Positions 5,601-35,701 of a DNA stretch of 35,881 nucleotides are shown one piece after another. The notes below the pieces were generated by a model. That model was given only the letters and a program-made list of their open reading frames with translations. It was not told the origin of the DNA and made no database searches. Every line of letters begins with the position of its first letter. The first letter of the stretch is position 1. This DNA comes from Bacteroidales bacterium (GTDB lineage: Bacteria > Bacteroidota > Bacteroidia > Bacteroidales > WCHB1-69), in contig JAGOKS010000016.1 in NCBI GenBank assembly GCA_017994425.1, positions 1 to 35,881 of the forward strand. The letters run 5' to 3'. The translations under genes and the position numbers were made by a program.

Positions 5601-7527
5601 CTCTAAATCTGCTTCTGAGGTATGTAATAAACAATTGGTGTCTTTTCGAAATATAACGCTTACAACACCCCATATTACAAGCTTGGCATATCAGTGGGAT
5701 TTTAACGGTCAAGGTAGTTCGATTTCTAAAAATGCACAATTTGCTTTTGAAGTTGATACGTCCCGTTGGGTATATATACGGTTAACAGTTACAGATACAG
5801 TAATAGGATGTAGTAGTTTTCGACTTGATTCTGTTTATGTTCATCGTGTTCATGCTGATTTTTATTCACCGGAATACATAGCTCCTTGTCCGGAATTACA
5901 ATGTTATTTTGTGGATAGTTCGCATGGGAATTCTATAGTCAGTTGGGAGTGGTTATTTGGTGATACATTAAGTAAAGCAAATACCTCTGCTTTGCAAAAC
6001 CCTTCTCATAATTATACATATGCAGGAAAGTATGATGTTACATTAATTGTTACCAATAGTCTAAATTGTACGGATACTGTTATTAAAAAACAATATGTAC
6101 GGATTGATGGACCTTATGGTACTTTTGAAATTGATACGTTACATGGATGTGCTCCTTTGACAGTTCATTTCACATGTAAAATTTCAGATGCAGATACTAT
6201 GATTATTATTACAGGCGATGGGAATACGATTACTGCTACTCAAAATTTAAGTTCAGTTTATGCATATACTTATCAGTCTCCTGAGCGTTATATTCCTTCT
6301 ATGCAATTAATAAAGTGGGTAACAGATAGTGTAACCGGAGAAAGATTACCATGTGTTCAAAATTTTTGGAATGATGATACAGTATGGGCGATTAATGTAA
6401 ATCCGGATTTTTTAACCGATAGTGTCTATTGTCAAGGGATTCCACTTGTTTTTCAAAATTTTACCGATTCGTTACATGGAAATATTTACCCATCATATTT
6501 ACCGCTTGATTCGTTTTATTGGGAATTTGGAAATGGGCAATTAGATAGTATACATTTTAATGGTATTACACAGTATGATAATCCGGGAACATATTTGGTT
6601 AATTTAACTTCTAGTGTTAAAAGTTGTACAAAAACAAAAAAGAAATTGATAAAAGTCTTTGATTTTCCCGATTTAAAATTTACGTATTCCGATTTATCCG
6701 CTTGTGATTCTTTATCGGTAGATTTTGAAGCCAAAAACATATCAGGAGAAGAACTTTCATTTGTTTGGAATTTTGACGATGGTGTTCAATTAAACGGGAA
6801 TCCGGTGAGTCGTTTATTTTATGCCTCAGGGGCATATTCCTATCGCTTGAATGTTACATTTCTAAATAGTCAATGTGTAAAAAGCTATGACGATACGGTT
6901 TATGTGAATGCATGGATACCTCCTAATGCTGATTTTATTATTTTAAATGCGAAAGGAGAAGATGTTACCGATAGAACAGATAAAGGTGTAAAAGCAAAAG
7001 AAAAGGCTGCTTTTATTGATAAATCAACACCAAACGATGGCCAAATTCTAAGGTGGATATGGGATTTTAACGATAATACATATGATACAACGGATGCAGG
7101 TGAAGATGTTTATCATGCATATACAACAACATCGGGAATAGTTACTATAATTTTGTATACAATTGATGAATACGGATGTGAAAGCATCGCCAAACATGAT
7201 TTGTTGGTTTTAGAATCTTTAAGTTTTCCGAATATTTTTTCTCCGAATAATGATGGTATTAATGATTATTTTTACCCATTGGAAATATTAGGCTATTTTG
7301 AAAATTTTGAAATGGTAATTTATACAAGGTGGGGAACTAAGGTATGGCAGAGAAATTGTAAAGACCCTAATTGCCCGAATTATGAAGATGAAAATTTTTG
7401 GTGGAATGGTAAAAATAAATCAGGGCAAGATGTTTCAGAAGGAGTGTATTATTGGGTAGTTTCTGCAACGCCTAAATCTCAAACGAATATGTTTATATTA
7501 AACGGTAGTGTAACTATAGTTCGTTAA
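2641..7527 (+). CDS. Giant multi-PKD-domain protein with type B T9SS C-terminal domain
   Basis: A 1628-residue exported protein. The N-terminus (residues 1-21, ending KGNAQ) is a Sec signal peptide. About a dozen PKD-like beta-sandwich repeats follow, seen as recurring W-x-F/W-G/D-D-G, NP-x-Y-x-Y and GxYxVxLxVTNxxGC signatures (for example WDFGDGGTS and WTFGDASSD). The middle, roughly residues 550-880, is more divergent and many repeats end in Cys. Residues from about 1528 to the end form a gliding-motility-associated C-terminal domain: FPNIFSPNNDGINDYF, then YTRWGTKVW, WNGKNKSGQDVSEGVYYW, and a terminal V-R. That domain is the type B sorting signal of the type IX secretion system, so the protein is probably exported and attached to the surface or released. 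A role in adhesion or matrix building is inferred from PKD content. No catalytic domain was recognised. Confidence 0.9.
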   Translation: MRQLIFFVLLVIISLYKGNAQTSDFIADTLTGCVPMQVTFTDLSAGNPVAWEWDMGDGSSHLYVQHPTYVFNTPGVYSITLMVTFADSTKKSKTINNYITASSGPYVNFSSNYKAICPYESIHFIDTILPGGTNVKSRLWDFGDGGTSTIQNPNYTYKTPGIYKVSLTGYNQMGCATKTEKLSFVTVYSKPIADFVADSIHCVNDSAEKKMISFTNNSSGHLSSFWLFEDGTTSTSASPSKLFGVGKHDVMLVVTNDKGCKDTLSKKDYVTINHFVAVFSASDTVVCDTSTEISFSGSNAIQYTWTFGDASSDLGKNVKHTYGQSGKYTVTLYATSDMGCIDTVVKTNYITVYDSVPALVTIFENPHCDSDAVITFINITQYPSSDDFGLESVIWYPEGDTSIALSGDTATYVYGRYGEWNVKGYIITPYGCKIEIVPQRMRIFPMKQVGENFFDKHPGGCAPLTVKPTSFGYIETSSPIVQYMWIWDNGDTTYSTQTDSVEYTYHDTGVFNVRVIVTNAQGCILEVTVAPIAVGFKPICVWTSTPTTACKSNYEMPVVAHDSLDSNGNLVGDAYANSWIWFWNGKDVTRVGDTSFVLSFKDTGLITYASLVCYHNFCPSDSVTKNIQAYVCPPIARIDPAVYKSFIDPFCNVFPILPDTMNKSIGANLFRWNFGNDFDSTLLGGSNFKGDTSTVENPYYQYKYGPYLMGKDGKIHLTLICANDNTSIYNACGYCEDTIVLLINISYADMKMIATDRDSMLIQEICQDDTAFFWDSTLCTSSLAYWGMRVVDSVLLDWAIAKGYPIDSATIMDTTVIYHHSFYDSINYERGAIRRNMSVYFPDYGVYYVYLYNVDTINCGRIKNLGAIDTNYKIEDVYEPSDYRMDTLRFVVNPRSVPDCSVPSPVCVNDTVIFNDLSYTVSPFQYFAITDYLWQSGGKTDTARNPTFVYTSGGKYDIALSIVNEKGCDSTILFEDKITVYKINAGFSKSASEVCNKQLVSFRNITLTTPHITSLAYQWDFNGQGSSISKNAQFAFEVDTSRWVYIRLTVTDTVIGCSSFRLDSVYVHRVHADFYSPEYIAPCPELQCYFVDSSHGNSIVSWEWLFGDTLSKANTSALQNPSHNYTYAGKYDVTLIVTNSLNCTDTVIKKQYVRIDGPYGTFEIDTLHGCAPLTVHFTCKISDADTMIIITGDGNTITATQNLSSVYAYTYQSPERYIPSMQLIKWVTDSVTGERLPCVQNFWNDDTVWAINVNPDFLTDSVYCQGIPLVFQNFTDSLHGNIYPSYLPLDSFYWEFGNGQLDSIHFNGITQYDNPGTYLVNLTSSVKSCTKTKKKLIKVFDFPDLKFTYSDLSACDSLSVDFEAKNISGEELSFVWNFDDGVQLNGNPVSRLFYASGAYSYRLNVTFLNSQCVKSYDDTVYVNAWIPPNADFIILNAKGEDVTDRTDKGVKAKEKAAFIDKSTPNDGQILRWIWDFNDNTYDTTDAGEDVYHAYTTTSGIVTIILYTIDEYGCESIAKHDLLVLESLSFPNIFSPNNDGINDYFYPLEILGYFENFEMVIYTRWGTKVWQRNCKDPNCPNYEDENFWWNGKNKSGQDVSEGVYYWVVSATPKSQTNMFILNGSVTIVR

Positions 7528-7638
7528 GATTAAAAATCTTTATGTTAATCAAATTTTATTTATTATTCTTATTATTTATTTGTTTATTTTTGTAATTCAA
7601 TAAAAACATATAACATATTAAAATAAATAATAATAAGG

Positions 7639-8838
7639 ATGAAGATATTAGTGTTAAATTGTGGGAGTTCATCAATCAAATATCAATTGATTGATATGGA
7701 AAATAATGCCGAAGTATTGGCTAAAGGTTTAATGGAACGTATAGGTTTGGAAATGGGTGAATTTACTCACAAAGCAAAAGGGAAAGATAAGTATTATGTA
7801 CAAGTTCCCATTGCTGATCATGCAGTTGGAATAGATTTGTTATTAAAAACGCTTACAGATACAGACTTAGGTGTTATTTCTGATGTGAATGAAATAAGTG
7901 CTTGTGGACATCGAGTAGCTCACGGCGGAGAATATTTTCCTAAAAGTTCCATCATTGGCGAAAAAGAAATGCAAGAAATAGAAAAATTATGTGTCATAGC
8001 TCCACTTCATAATCCCGGTAATTTGTTGGGAATAAAGGTTATGAAGAGTGTTTTGCCAAAAGTGAAACAGGTAGGCGTTTTTGATACCTCTTTTCATCAA
8101 ACGATGCCAGCAGAAGCTTTTTTATATGCTATTCCTTATGAATATTATACCCAACAAAAAATTAGACGCTATGGTTTTCATGGCACAAGTCATAAGTTCG
8201 TGGCCCCAAAAGCTGCAGAATTACTCGGTATAGATTGGAAAACAAAAAAAATTATCGTTTGTCATTTGGGTAATGGTGCTTCTATTTGTGCCGTTAATTG
8301 TGGGCAGTCAGTAGATACTTCTATGGGTTTTACTCCTGTTGAAGGTTTGATAATGGGAACTCGTACCGGAGATCTTGATGCAGGTGTATTAATGTATATT
8401 GCCGAAAATGAAAAACTAGATTATAAGGGAATGAATACATTGGTAAATAAAAAATCCGGATTACAAGGGATATCGGGGGGTAAGTCTGATATGCGAGATA
8501 TTCGAGCCGGTAAAGAAGCTGGCGATGAACGTTGTGCTCATGCTTTTAATATGTTTGCATATAGAGTAAAAAAATACATAGGTGCGTATACAGCAGCTAT
8601 GAATGGTGTTGATATTATTGCAATGACCGGTGGAATTGGAGAAAATGCTTGGTTTATGCGGGAAGCTATTCTTGAGAATTTAGATTATTTAGGCATAGTA
8701 CTAGACAAGAAAGCTAATCAAGATTTTGCAGGAGTTGATGGAGTTATCTCATCAGCAGAAAGTAAAGTGAAAGTTCTTTCTGTAACCACGAACGAAGAAT
8801 TAGTCATTGCTTTAGATACCTATCAATTGGTAAAATAA
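7639..8838 (+). CDS. ackA: Acetate kinase
   Basis: Acetate kinase interconverts acetyl phosphate plus ADP with acetate plus ATP, the ATP-yielding last step of acetate fermentation. At 399 residues it is full length. ASKHA-family motifs are intact: LNCGSSSIKYQL at the N-terminus, GHRVAHGG with the substrate Arg, FDTSFHQTMP with the catalytic Asp, RYGFHGTSHKFV, CHLGNGASICAV, GTRTGDLDAG, GGIGENAWF, and TNEELVIA near the C-terminus with the metal-binding Glu. The usual partner pta is not adjacent; the upstream neighbour is the PKD gene. A -7-like TATTTTTG lies at 7585-7592 in the 111-base gap, without a clear -33 box. Confidence 0.96.
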   Translation: MKILVLNCGSSSIKYQLIDMENNAEVLAKGLMERIGLEMGEFTHKAKGKDKYYVQVPIADHAVGIDLLLKTLTDTDLGVISDVNEISACGHRVAHGGEYFPKSSIIGEKEMQEIEKLCVIAPLHNPGNLLGIKVMKSVLPKVKQVGVFDTSFHQTMPAEAFLYAIPYEYYTQQKIRRYGFHGTSHKFVAPKAAELLGIDWKTKKIIVCHLGNGASICAVNCGQSVDTSMGFTPVEGLIMGTRTGDLDAGVLMYIAENEKLDYKGMNTLVNKKSGLQGISGGKSDMRDIRAGKEAGDERCAHAFNMFAYRVKKYIGAYTAAMNGVDIIAMTGGIGENAWFMREAILENLDYLGIVLDKKANQDFAGVDGVISSAESKVKVLSVTTNEELVIALDTYQLVK

Positions 8839-17701: not shown

Positions 17702-19222
17702 TTATTTTCCATAATTAGGATAACCAACACGTGCCATAGCGCAACGGAATCCTATATAAGCAGTTGCTTCGTTTTCATCAAGGAATCTTCTTTGCCCTGG
17801 ACTTAACCAATACTGCATATCTTGCCAAGAACCACCTTTATAAACTTTTGCTTTGTCTTCCACTAAAGAATAAGTTCCACGAGGGTAGGCAGTTTTTCCG
17901 TACATTTCAAGATTTGCCTTTTCATTTCGACCTTGTCTTTGCCATACTTCTGTATTACCACCACCGTAGGTTGATGCCCAATCACCATCTAAAAAGTTTT
18001 TATTGTCAGCAGCCCGATAGTTTCTTCTTCTGTCATTTTTAAAATCAGAAACCGGAACCATAGGTACTTGACCGACTTTATCGCCATCATCAATTCTATC
18101 ATCAATAGTGCCATCATCTAATAATTTTGGGGTAGTATAGTAGTTTCCTCTGTATGGATTCAAATCGGTCATGTCATCAACCGATACTTGACGATACACA
18201 TCCATTACCCATTCGGCAACATTACCTGCCATATTGTACAAACCATAATCATTAGGCCAGTAATAAATGACAGGAGATGTATAATCCGCAACGTCATTCA
18301 AATTGCCGGCAACACCCATATAATCACCGCGTCCTCTTTTAAAATTCGCAACCATAGAACCATAAAATTTTTTATCGTCTGTACGTGCAAAGTGTCCATT
18401 CCACGGATAAGTTCTTCTTTCTAATATTCTTTCTTGTAGAGTATTGCCTATAAGTCCCAATGCCGCAAATTCCCATTCAGCTTCAGTCGGTAGTCGGTAT
18501 CTCGGAAGAAGAATGCCATCTTCCATACGAGCATTACGTTCTTCTCCCGTAAGGATGTATTGCAGCCTACGATCACTATTTTTTTCGTAATCAGGATACA
18601 TGAGATAAGCATCTGTATTAAAATACCCTTCAGCAGTAGGTTCATTGGTTTGATCAATTAATCCTAAATCAACTAAAATTTGTTCATTAACACGGTCTGT
18701 TCTCCAAGCACAATAGTTTACTGCTTGAATCCAACTCACACCTACAACCGGATAATCTCTATATGCTGGATGTCTTAAATAATATTCAACGTATGGTTCA
18801 TTATAGGATAATTTATCACGCCAGCAAGCAGTATCCGGTAAAGCTTTTGCATATACTGATATAAAATCAACAGGAACAAAAACACGATATAACCAGTGTA
18901 AATATTCTAAATATGCTAAGTTGCTTACTTCAGCTTCATCCATAAAAAAAGATGAAACGGTAACTGTACGAGGATAATTATCCCAATCTTTCATCACATC
19001 TTCTTCAGTTCTTCCCATTGTAAAGCGACCACCTTCAATGAAGACAAGTCCGGGACCTGTAATTTGTTCCTGATAAGGAGCGACTTCGAATCCTCCATTT
19101 TCAGGATTGTTATATTCCCATCCTGTTGTAGTAGAGTATTCTCTTTTACAAGAGTTGAAGAATATAAAGCATAAGCTTATGCTAACTAAAACTAATAAGT
19201 TTAAAATTTTATTTGTATTCAT
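17702..19222 (-). CDS. gldJ: GldJ-like gliding/type IX secretion lipoprotein, FGE-sulfatase fold
   Basis: A 506-residue lipoprotein. The signal peptide ends in the lipobox FFNSC with lipidated Cys25. GldJ and its paralogue GldK/PorK belong to the outer-membrane ring and gliding machinery of the type IX secretion system and share a formylglycine-generating-enzyme-like domain. That domain runs from about residue 58 (FIEGGRFTMGRT) through MDEAEVSNLAYLEYL, PVVGVSWIQAVNYC, RLPTEAEWEFAALG and YNMAGNVAEWVMDVY to VYKGGSWQDM and FRCAMARVGYP. The early TGWEYNNPENGGFEVAPYQ region, with EQITGPGLVFIEGG, favours GldJ over PorK. Absence of the PorL/PorM/PorN genes downstream supports this. PorP/SprF lies 29 bases upstream in the same transcript. 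The active-site cysteines of true FGE enzymes are not conserved, so a structural role is expected. Confidence 0.85.
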   Translation of the reverse strand: MNTNKILNLLVLVSISLCFIFFNSCKREYSTTTGWEYNNPENGGFEVAPYQEQITGPGLVFIEGGRFTMGRTEEDVMKDWDNYPRTVTVSSFFMDEAEVSNLAYLEYLHWLYRVFVPVDFISVYAKALPDTACWRDKLSYNEPYVEYYLRHPAYRDYPVVGVSWIQAVNYCAWRTDRVNEQILVDLGLIDQTNEPTAEGYFNTDAYLMYPDYEKNSDRRLQYILTGEERNARMEDGILLPRYRLPTEAEWEFAALGLIGNTLQERILERRTYPWNGHFARTDDKKFYGSMVANFKRGRGDYMGVAGNLNDVADYTSPVIYYWPNDYGLYNMAGNVAEWVMDVYRQVSVDDMTDLNPYRGNYYTTPKLLDDGTIDDRIDDGDKVGQVPMVPVSDFKNDRRRNYRAADNKNFLDGDWASTYGGGNTEVWQRQGRNEKANLEMYGKTAYPRGTYSLVEDKAKVYKGGSWQDMQYWLSPGQRRFLDENEATAYIGFRCAMARVGYPNYGK

Positions 19223-32981: not shown

Positions 32982-33016
32982 GTAAGCGGGTGATTTGAAT
33001 TCACCCGCTTACTTTT
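32982..33016 (+). terminator. Intrinsic terminator after aroK, left end of repeat unit 1
   Basis: GTAAGCGGGTGA (32982-32993) pairs perfectly with TCACCCGCTTAC (33001-33012) around a seven-base loop, followed by TTTT. The same hairpin opens each repeat unit. Confidence 0.85.
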
Positions 33017-33040
33017 CCGCAATAAAAAATATTTCACGTT

Positions 33041-33068
33041 TTGCTTATTGTAATATTTTGTATATTTG
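33041..33068 (+). promoter_or_regulatory. Promoter of target gene 1
   Basis: TTG at 33041-33043 (within TTTTG), 17 bases, then TATATTTG at 33061-33068: a good Bacteroidota -33/-7 pair. The leader to the ATG at 33122 is about 50 bases. Present unchanged in all three units. Confidence 0.65.
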
Positions 33069-33121
33069 CAAAATTAAATGTACAAAGATTTATCAAATTT
33101 ATAATTTAACAATAATCTATT

Positions 33122-34054
33122 ATGAATAAATACATTATTTCTTTATTGGTACTTATTTTCAGTTTGAATGCGGCGGCACAAACTAAGCCTACGCCGGTAA
33201 GTGAACGTATGGTTGATGGTAAACGCATGGTAATTTATAGTGATGGCACTTGGAAAGAAAAAGAATATACCAAACCCAAAATCCAATGGGTTGCTATACC
33301 CGGGGGCACATTTACCATGGGGAGCCCTTATGACCAAGCAGACAGAGAGGATATCGAAACACCCCATCAAGTAACATTGAGTGCGTTTAAAATGAGTAAG
33401 TATGAAATTACCAATGCCCAGTATGCCGCCTTTTTAAATGCCAAAAACATTGGCAGTGATGGAAAATATGAGGCAGGATCCTATCCTACAGAAGAACTAA
33501 TTTATCAAAGTGGAGGCAATTATGATTGGGGGTTGCATTATGTAGATGGACAATGGGTGCCGGTTGCGGGATATGAAAACTACCCGGTGATAAATGTTAC
33601 TTGGTATGGAGCCTCGGAATTTGCTGCCTATATGGGTTGCCGCCTGCCTACTGAGGCTGAATGGGAATATGCCTGCCGAGCGGGAACTACCACCCATTTT
33701 AATACAGGTATCTGTTTAAATACCACACAAGCCAATTATGATGGGAGTTACCCCATGGAATGGTGTAGCGAGGGAGTATATAGAGGCAAAACAATGCCGG
33801 TGGGTAGTTTTTCTCCCAATGCTTGGGGCTTGTGTGATATGCATGGAAATGTATGGGAATGGTGTAGTGATTGGTACGATGAATATCCAATCTATGCACA
33901 AACAAATCCTAAAGGTCCTGCAAGCGGGGCGTGCCGAGTTTTCCGTGGCGGTAGTTGGTACAACGATGCTCGCTATTGTCGTAGTGCCTATCGCAACCGC
34001 TACTTTCCGTTCAACTACTACAACCTTATAGGTTTTCGTGTGGTTTCTCTTTAG
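33122..34054 (+). CDS. Exported FGE-sulfatase-fold protein, probable DGR variable protein 1
   Basis: A 310-residue protein with a Sec signal peptide (residues 1-20, ending NAAAQ) and a short GKRMVIYSDGTWKEK module. A formylglycine-generating-enzyme-like (C-type lectin-like) domain runs from about residue 55: WVAIPGGTFTMGSP, KYEITNAQYAAFLNAK, CRLPTEAEWEYACRAG, LCDMHGNVWEWCSDWY and VFRGGSW. The last 35 residues are GGSW, variable, ARYCRSA, variable, RN, variable, GFRVVSL, the layout of diversity-generating retroelement target proteins such as Treponema TvpA. True FGE enzymes have two active-site Cys here; only YC remains, so it is a ligand-binding fold and not an enzyme. It has no type IX CTD or lipobox, so location (periplasm or outside) is unclear. 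Compared with its paralogue at 34499, most changes fall in the C-terminal loops and at residues 116-140. Confidence 0.88.
   Translation: MNKYIISLLVLIFSLNAAAQTKPTPVSERMVDGKRMVIYSDGTWKEKEYTKPKIQWVAIPGGTFTMGSPYDQADREDIETPHQVTLSAFKMSKYEITNAQYAAFLNAKNIGSDGKYEAGSYPTEELIYQSGGNYDWGLHYVDGQWVPVAGYENYPVINVTWYGASEFAAYMGCRLPTEAEWEYACRAGTTTHFNTGICLNTTQANYDGSYPMEWCSEGVYRGKTMPVGSFSPNAWGLCDMHGNVWEWCSDWYDEYPIYAQTNPKGPASGACRVFRGGSWYNDARYCRSAYRNRYFPFNYYNLIGFRVVSL
33923..34039 (+). other. DGR variable region (VR) of target gene 1
   Basis: In this 3' end of the gene, codons that differ from copy 2 within the GGSW-to-IGF loops all end in C or T (TAC, AAC, GAT, TAT, CGC, TTT, TTC, CTT). That is the NNY spectrum expected when AAC/AAT template codons are adenine-mutagenised. 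Framework codons (GGT AGT TGG, GCT CGC, TGT CGT AGT, GGT TTT CGT) are unchanged. Differences at 33923-33934 (S-G-A-C versus S-G-S-H) suggest the VR begins there. The template repeat is not in the window. Confidence 0.75.
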
Positions 34055-34094: not shown

Positions 34095-34163
34095 GCTTTG
34101 CCATAAGGGAGTGAGGCAAGGCTCGTGCGGAGCCGAGACAGACGAACGACTAATAGGCAAAGC
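34095..34163 (+). other. Structured intergenic element 1 (nested inverted repeats)
   Basis: GCTTTGCC (34095-34102) pairs with GGCAAAGC (34156-34163) as an outer 8-bp stem. Inside, GGCTC (34120-34124) pairs with GAGCC (34130-34134) around a five-base loop. It lies 41 bases after the target gene stop. It is kept in copy 2 with one change only in the inner loop. No T run follows, so it is probably not a simple terminator. Confidence 0.6.
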
Positions 34164-34498: not shown

Positions 34499-35449
34499 AT
34501 GAATAAATACATTATTTCTTTATTAGTACTTGTTTTCAGTTTGAATGCGGCGGCACAAACTAAGCCTACGCCGGTAAGTGAACGTATGGTTGATGGTAAA
34601 CGCATGGTAATTTATAGCGATGGCACCTGGAAAGAAAAAGAATATACCAAACCCAAAATCCAATGGGTTGCTATACCCGGGGGCACATTTACCATGGGAA
34701 GCCCTTACGACCAAGCAAACAGAGAGGATGACGAAATACCCCATCAGGTAACATTGAGTGCGTTTAAAATGAGTAAGTATGAAATTACCAATGCCCAGTA
34801 TGCCGCCTTTTTGAATGCCAAAAACATAGGTAGCGATGGGAAATTTGCGGCAGGAGCATTTCCTACACAAGTTTTAATTTATGAAAGTAGTAGCGTTTAT
34901 GATTGGGGTTTGCATTATGCCGATGGACAATGGGTGCCGGTTGCGGGCTATGAAAACCACCCGGTGATAAAAGTTACTTGGTATGGAGCCTCGGAATTTG
35001 CTTCCTATATGGGTTGCCGCCTGCCTACTGAGGCTGAATGGGAATATGCCTGCCGAGCCGGAACTACCACCCATTTTAATACAGGTATTTGTTTAAATAC
35101 CACACAAGCCAATTATGCTGGGAATTACCCCATGGAATGGCGTAGCGAGGGAGTATATAGACGCAAAACAATGCCGGTGGGTAGTTTTTCTCCCAATGCT
35201 TGGGGCTTGTGTGATATGCATGGAAATGTATGGGAATGGTGTAGTGATTGGTACGGTGAATATCCAAATTATGCACAAACAAATCCTAAAGGACCTGCAT
35301 CCGGGTCGCACCGAGTGTTCCGTGGCGGTAGTTGGCACAGCCTTGCTCGCTATTGTCGTAGTGCTCGTCGCAACTACTCCTATCCGCTCAACTACTCCGA
35401 CTTCTTCGCCAGCTACGACTATATTGGTTTTCGTGTGGTTTCTCTTTAG
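34499..35449 (+). CDS. Exported FGE-sulfatase-fold protein, probable DGR variable protein 2
   Basis: A 316-residue paralogue of the protein at 33122, with the same signal peptide (NAAAQ end), the same SDGTWKEK module and the same FGE/C-type-lectin-like framework. It is six residues longer, all in the last variable loop: RNYSYPLNYSDFFASYDYIGF compared with RNRYFPFNYYNLIGF. A second cluster of replacements is at residues 116-140 (FAAGAFPTQVLIYESSSV compared with YEAGSYPTEELIYQSGGN). Substitutions elsewhere are few and mostly silent. Other loop changes include H-S-L after GGSW and SGSH for SGAC. These are the exposed loops of the fold, so the two proteins probably differ in ligand specificity. 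It has its own promoter and is preceded by a terminator. Confidence 0.88.
   Translation: MNKYIISLLVLVFSLNAAAQTKPTPVSERMVDGKRMVIYSDGTWKEKEYTKPKIQWVAIPGGTFTMGSPYDQANREDDEIPHQVTLSAFKMSKYEITNAQYAAFLNAKNIGSDGKFAAGAFPTQVLIYESSSVYDWGLHYADGQWVPVAGYENHPVIKVTWYGASEFASYMGCRLPTEAEWEYACRAGTTTHFNTGICLNTTQANYAGNYPMEWRSEGVYRRKTMPVGSFSPNAWGLCDMHGNVWEWCSDWYGEYPNYAQTNPKGPASGSHRVFRGGSWHSLARYCRSARRNYSYPLNYSDFFASYDYIGFRVVSL
35300..35434 (+). other. DGR variable region (VR) of target gene 2
   Basis: The equivalent of 33923-34039, with an 18-base in-frame insertion. Variable codons between GGSW and the final GF are again all NNC or NNT (CAC, AGC, CTT, TAT, CGT, TAC, TCC, CTC, GAC, TTC, GCC). The codon before GGTTTTCGT is ATT here and ATA in copy 1, consistent with a template adenine. 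Confidence 0.75.
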
Positions 35450-35489: not shown

Positions 35490-35558
35490 GCTTTGCCATA
35501 AGGGAGTGAGGCAAGGCTCGAGCGGAGCCGAGACAGACGAACGACTAATAGGCAAAGC
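35490..35558 (+). other. Structured intergenic element 2 (nested inverted repeats)
   Basis: The same 8-bp outer stem (35490-35497 with 35551-35558) and inner GGCTC/GAGCC hairpin as element 1, same total length. The single base difference falls in the inner loop. Confidence 0.6.
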
Positions 35559-35587: not shown

Positions 35588-35701
35588 ATGCAGATACGAA
35601 TATTTACAATACCCATAACAGATTGTGGAGAATTACAGGGAGAAATGAATAGATTTTTAGCAAGTCAAAGTGTAAAGAGTCCTGGGTGCCGAAACAATTA
35701 A
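35588..35701 (+). pseudogene. Truncated DGR accessory (HRDC-type) gene fragment 2
   Basis: Second copy of the 37-codon ORF, differing by one residue (TDCG for TDSG). It is followed by the same (TTAAAAA)n tract and AT-rich tail, so the truncation existed before the duplication or was spread by it. Confidence 0.5.

Follow-up and report, generated by a model that had tools for sequence, protein, structure and literature searches.

The segment at the 3' end of two tandem genes in the window, the whole 35,881-nt stretch of Bacteroidales DNA analysed here, is best explained as a variable repeat (VR) belonging to an FGE/HRDC-type diversity-generating retroelement (DGR) of bacteria, lying in a duplicated unit that has no DGR core of its own and is probably served in trans or now orphaned, a reading to which a probability of about 0.9 is assigned. 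The VRs of the window belong to a known kind of DGR target, and what is less usual is the core-less tandem arrangement and the variation in length. The two genes present a clear case of DGR targets that RT-anchored searches miss, and they mark a secreted hypervariable binding protein in the source organism. Table 1 summarizes the features of the array.

Table 1. Features of the tandem array, in positions of the window.
Feature	Position	Strand	Basis
Start of tandem unit: terminator-like inverted repeat and upstream region of copy 1	32982..33108	+	repeat D3
Copy 1, probable DGR target gene encoding an FGE-sulfatase domain protein of 310 aa	33122..34054	+	PF03781 E=4.6e-60
VR core of copy 1, YNDARYCRSAYRNRYFPFNYYNLI, flanked by RGGSW and GFRV	33959..34030	+	codon alignment; columns match TR adenines
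Inverted repeat after VR1, GCTTTGCC...GGCAAAGC, containing a GGCTC/GAGCC inner stem; candidate hairpin/cruciform for target recognition	34095..34163	+	DNA fold
Truncated start of HRDC accessory gene: MQIRIFTIPITDSGELQGEMNRFLASQSVKS, followed before the stop by 6 unrelated residues	34193..34306	+	62% identity over 29 aa to L263
Copy 2, second probable DGR target gene, 316 aa	34499..35449	+	PF03781 E=1.8e-60
VR core of copy 2, HSLARYCRSARRNYSYPLNYSDFFASYDYI	35336..35425	+	codon alignment
Six extra codons of copy 2, TCC GAC TTC TTC GCC AGC, all NNC	35396..35413	+	codon alignment
Inverted repeat after VR2, as after VR1	35490..35558	+	98% identical 300-nt repeat D1
Second truncated accessory start, truncation point in common	35588..35701	+	sequence comparison
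Exact 127-nt copy of 32982-33108 at contig end	35755..35881	+	127 matches forward, 0 backward

Target genes and their variable segment

Both genes are assigned to the C-type-lectin/FGE fold by PF03781, with the VR lying at the 3' end and finishing a few codons short of the stop, and the copies are 88% identical. Copy 1 begins with MNKYIISLLVLIFSLNAAAQ, which was judged by eye to resemble a Sec-type signal peptide. Its relatives include solved FGEs as well as the variable protein of Treponema denticola, the structure of which is known (2y3c, E = 9.5e-19). The catalytic formylglycine-generating enzyme carries two active-site cysteines in its C-terminal segment. Such a pair was sought in the aligned C-terminal segment of the window protein and was not found, DARYCRSAYR, which aligns to YCYRYRCAAR of SUMF1, having a single Cys. 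Since one cysteine stands where the enzyme has a pair, a binding fold is likelier than an enzyme, and the protein is thus more likely to be secreted and to bind a ligand through a randomised surface.

The preliminary description held that every codon varying between the copies ends in C or T and that the framework codons around them are fixed and free of silent changes. Codon alignment of the two genes over their full length bore this out in part. The eight codon pairs then listed are real, follow the NNY form and conserve the third base, and two further NNY differences (AAC/GAC and CTT/TAT) were found, but ATA/ATT at codon 303 breaks the rule. GGT AGT TGG, GCT CGC, TGT CGT AGT and CCG are indeed identical in both copies, whereas GCC/GCT at codon 289 is a silent framework change. 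As an argument, moreover, the lack of silent changes is weak alone, third positions differing at 2/33 in the segment and 23/278 in the rest of the gene (P = 1), and it was dropped. The real signal in the segment is an excess of changes at codon positions 1-2, with 14/66 changed against 31/556 elsewhere (P = 7e-5). Outside the segment the copies differ by 19 silent and 26 replacement codon differences, a divergence of 6.5%.

A homologue of copy 1 in the same-genus genome G094 (G94a, G094:C123:9308-10243) is 94% identical and syntenic, with the left flank in common; its divergence from copy 1 is 2.3% in the rest of the gene and rises to 20.2% within the segment, with 17/66 sites at codon positions 1-2 changed in the segment against 10/556 outside (P = 1.4e-11). 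No such excess was seen in a control pair of same-genus FGE genes, G091/G093 (16% inside and 15% outside, P = 1), where changes fall mostly at third positions. Between the two species, the framework codons of the VR have hardly drifted. Other FGE genes of the source genome (C27; window 17702-19222) were considered as further VRs and rejected, their codons being without the NNY pattern.

Agreement with template adenines

Because no template was found in the source genome, the count of substitutions at template A against other bases, proposed earlier as a check, was run on related template repeats (TRs), drawn from independent DGRs in the order and family of the window and not including the cognate one. 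In related TR/VR pairs of equal length, some of which share one organism, each VR has changes at 10 to 18 template adenines, against 0 changes at non-A sites in most pairs, 1 in a few and 3 at worst, of 66-75 sites each. In one such pair, for example, 14/29 A and 0/70 non-A sites are changed. The columns polymorphic between the two window copies coincide with adenines of independent same-order TRs (P = 6e-4 to 3e-7), and so do those polymorphic among four copies (P = 6e-9 to 7.6e-15), whereas the G091/G093 control gave P = 0.03 to 0.33. The interpretation as adenine-directed mutagenesis is therefore supported, with the TRs of relatives standing for the template.

The same comparison accounts for the two exceptions to the NNY rule, at which the four copies read GCC/GCT/GCA/GCG and ATA/ATT/CTG/ATG. 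Both are expected, since template codons GCA and ATA would vary at the third base; the TR of L263 reads GTA GCA where the matching VR codons are GTG GCC. Two other changes, AGT to GTT in G94b and GGT to GGA in G94a, do not fit simply with an origin at a template A.

Diversification of the binding loop by positive selection and recombination among FGE paralogues, with no retroelement involved, is very improbable. Mosaic exchange does occur among these genes, as suggested by a second replacement-rich patch at codons 116-133 (33467-33520 and 34844-34900), in which copy 1 is like G94a and copy 2 like G94b, and because the copies diverge at this patch and elsewhere, paralogue recombination contributes to their differences and could also have shuffled VRs. 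Nevertheless, selection predicts neither that all variable NNY codons keep their third base, nor that a single GCN codon, and no other, varies silently in four ways, nor the coincidence with template adenines; the G091/G093 pair shows third-position changes instead, and an HRDC stub stands downstream of each gene.

An order-wide search with a DGR HRDC accessory protein recovered complete DGRs in many genomes, composed, in this order, of a VR gene, HRDC, an RT with IGNLTSQ...YMDD and an FGE-type TR. The family of the window contains two complete DGRs, L262/G103 and L263/G075, the latter with an accessory protein starting MQIRIFTIP, an RT and a TR. The window resembles these and other FGE/HRDC-type systems of the order (L143-L157) in its FGE-sulfatase target, its VR of the form RGGSW...CR(S/V)A.R....P......GFR, and a gap of about 140-200 nt, with an inverted repeat in most, followed by an HRDC-type accessory gene starting MQI(R/K)(I/L)FTIP. 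It differs in that HRDC is cut to about 30 codons, that the contig has neither RT nor TR, and that the target unit is tandemly repeated with VRs of different lengths. Viral contigs scanned with the VR framework pattern gave 0 matches, and only one distinct complete FGE-type DGR (L209/L210) was seen among the viral relatives of the gene that were retrieved.

A tandem unit without a core

The inverted repeat downstream of VR1 lies about 50 nt past the VR and folds as DNA with z=-2.6, 2/200 shuffles folding at least as well. Most of the complete relatives checked fold strongly at the same place, L145 being without such an inverted repeat. The repeat in the window and the strong folding in most relatives recall the hairpin/cruciform of Bordetella phage BPP-1, which is needed for DGR homing (PMC3240598). 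BPP-1 shares adenine mutagenesis of a C-terminal VR, which is followed there by a hairpin/cruciform, but it is a phage DGR of the Avd type, its GC-rich hairpin is short, shorter than the repeat here, and its target is the tail protein Mtd.

The reading frame MQIRIFTIPITDSGELQGEMNRFLASQSVKSPGCRNN* begins 138 nt after each window gene and matches residues 1-29 of the accessory protein of L263, from the same family, at 62% identity, with the similarity ending there. The HRDC domain itself is present in L018, a full-length relative of the stub. In G094 (L110 10330-10425), dispersed repeats of the type ATTATTGCGTCAATAA stand in place of the stub; repeats of this type also match several contigs of the source genome.

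The repeated unit is about 1.38-1.40 kb long, with the terminator-like repeat at 32982 marking its start. Judging from its sequence, the copy of the unit start at the contig end is an assembly-graph overlap of k-mer size, the mark of an assembly loop. With an exact 127-nt overlap there, the array continues or loops past the contig, and its copy number is not fixed by the assembly. By comparison with G094, about 3.2 kb of the right flank is missing: the HD-domain gene and most of mutL (names given by eye from translations), which come next in G094, are missing from the source genome, which picks up again at C75:1, within the beginning of mutL.

A complete DGR, with RT, TR and full HRDC accessory gene, was not found in the source genome, which is 88.5% complete and has the gap beside the array. 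Searches of that genome for RVT_1 and for a DGR-type RT with the IGxxxSQ motif gave no hit, HRDC was found there twice and only as its first 30 or so codons, and a search of the genus with an inferred TR for the cognate FGE-type TR matched VRs only. The G094 stretch syntenic to the array contains no RT or TR, and no RT/TR/HRDC core for the FGE target type was detected in G094 (93% complete). The sole RT found in the genus (G094:C92, L114/L115, about 6552-8453) is accompanied by bAvd and an N-rich TR; it was rejected as a trans-acting source because this TR serves a different target type, YYWSSTENNNNNAW...VRAVR, and the RT is thus not cognate. Given the completeness of 88.5% and the 127-nt end overlap, absence of the core from the source genome is not conclusive.

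Two special cases of the preferred reading are to be weighed here. An intact and active HRDC-RT-TR core may lie on an unbinned contig or to the right of the array, where the assembly has a gap, which would make this an ordinary cis DGR. The exact overlap of the contig end with the upstream region of copy 1, the missing HD-domain gene and mutL and the incompleteness of the genome leave room for it; however, the syntenic G094 stretch is without RT or TR and both HRDC copies are truncated alike, and from this common truncation it follows that the repeated unit itself is core-less. Such a cis core is considered unlikely. Somewhat better placed, though still short of an even chance, is the loss of the core, with VRs frozen and either drifting or kept as fixed binding proteins. 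It agrees with the truncated HRDC and with the failure to detect RT, TR or HRDC in the source genome or, for the FGE target type, in G094, and there is a precedent in T. denticola, some strains of which keep target genes without RT and TR (PMC4891356). Against it, the VRs of the tandem copies are strongly different despite a 3' flank of 98% identity, and their framework codons are almost without drift across two species, so that any loss of the core would be recent.

Proposed course of events and loop length

According to the preferred reading, RNA from a template repeat with AAC/AAT codons (predicted translation ending (N)6-12IGFRV) would have been copied by the RT, which made errors at adenines; mutagenic retrohoming would have put the resulting cDNA in place of the VR and so altered about 15 residues, presumably surface ones, on a secreted binding protein of C-type-lectin fold. 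The VR-HRDC-RT-TR cassette would have lost everything past the first ~30 HRDC codons, and the remaining unit of target gene, hairpin and HRDC stub would have been duplicated in tandem. Diversification would have gone on in trans, with an RT and a TR that either lie in genomic sequence missing from the assembly or have since been lost. We infer this order of truncation, duplication and diversification, which is supported by three observations: both units are truncated at one point, their 3' flanks are 98% identical, and their VRs are strongly different. Diversification probably continued after the truncation, because the VRs differ while 300 nt of 3' flank are 98% identical. Amplification of core-less target units with continued diversification in trans is thereby suggested, and it is testable.

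Parts of this arrangement have parallels. The T. denticola DGR (TvpA) has the same target fold class (2y3c), an HRDC accessory and several target genes, but its targets are remote, whereas those of the window form a tandem array. The DGRs of Thiohalocapsa PB-PSB1 also have FGE-domain VR targets and incomplete loci; diversification has been observed at such loci, candidate remote targets were reported, and action in trans was explored by the authors (PMC10907252). FGE targets in that organism are joined to STAND NTPase/effector domains, unlike the stand-alone secreted FGE-domain protein of the window.

The VRs also differ in length. From CCG to the ATA-type codon before GFR, the NNY run is 6 codons long in copy 1, against 7 in G94a and 12 in copy 2, and the extra codons of copy 2 are read as a putative expansion of the inferred (AAC)n tract of the template. 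Such a change could plausibly come from slippage on the AAC tract; a search of the available literature on slippage in DGRs turned up no relevant paper. Change of VR loop length in whole codons within AAC tracts is likewise suggested and open to test. It is a speculative proposal, and a rather doubtful one as a whole, that a core-less, tandemly amplified target unit is diversified in trans by an RT that slips codon-wise on the AAC-rich tract, so that the loop (6, 7 or 12 NNY codons) would vary in length as well as in sequence. Among the relatives, two independent TR/VR pairs, L075 and L209 (L209/L210), each have a VR that exceeds its TR by one NNC-type codon, the additional codon lying in the AAC tract before GFR, where copy 2 has its expansion, and 25 other TR/VR pairings, including some duplicates, are of equal length.
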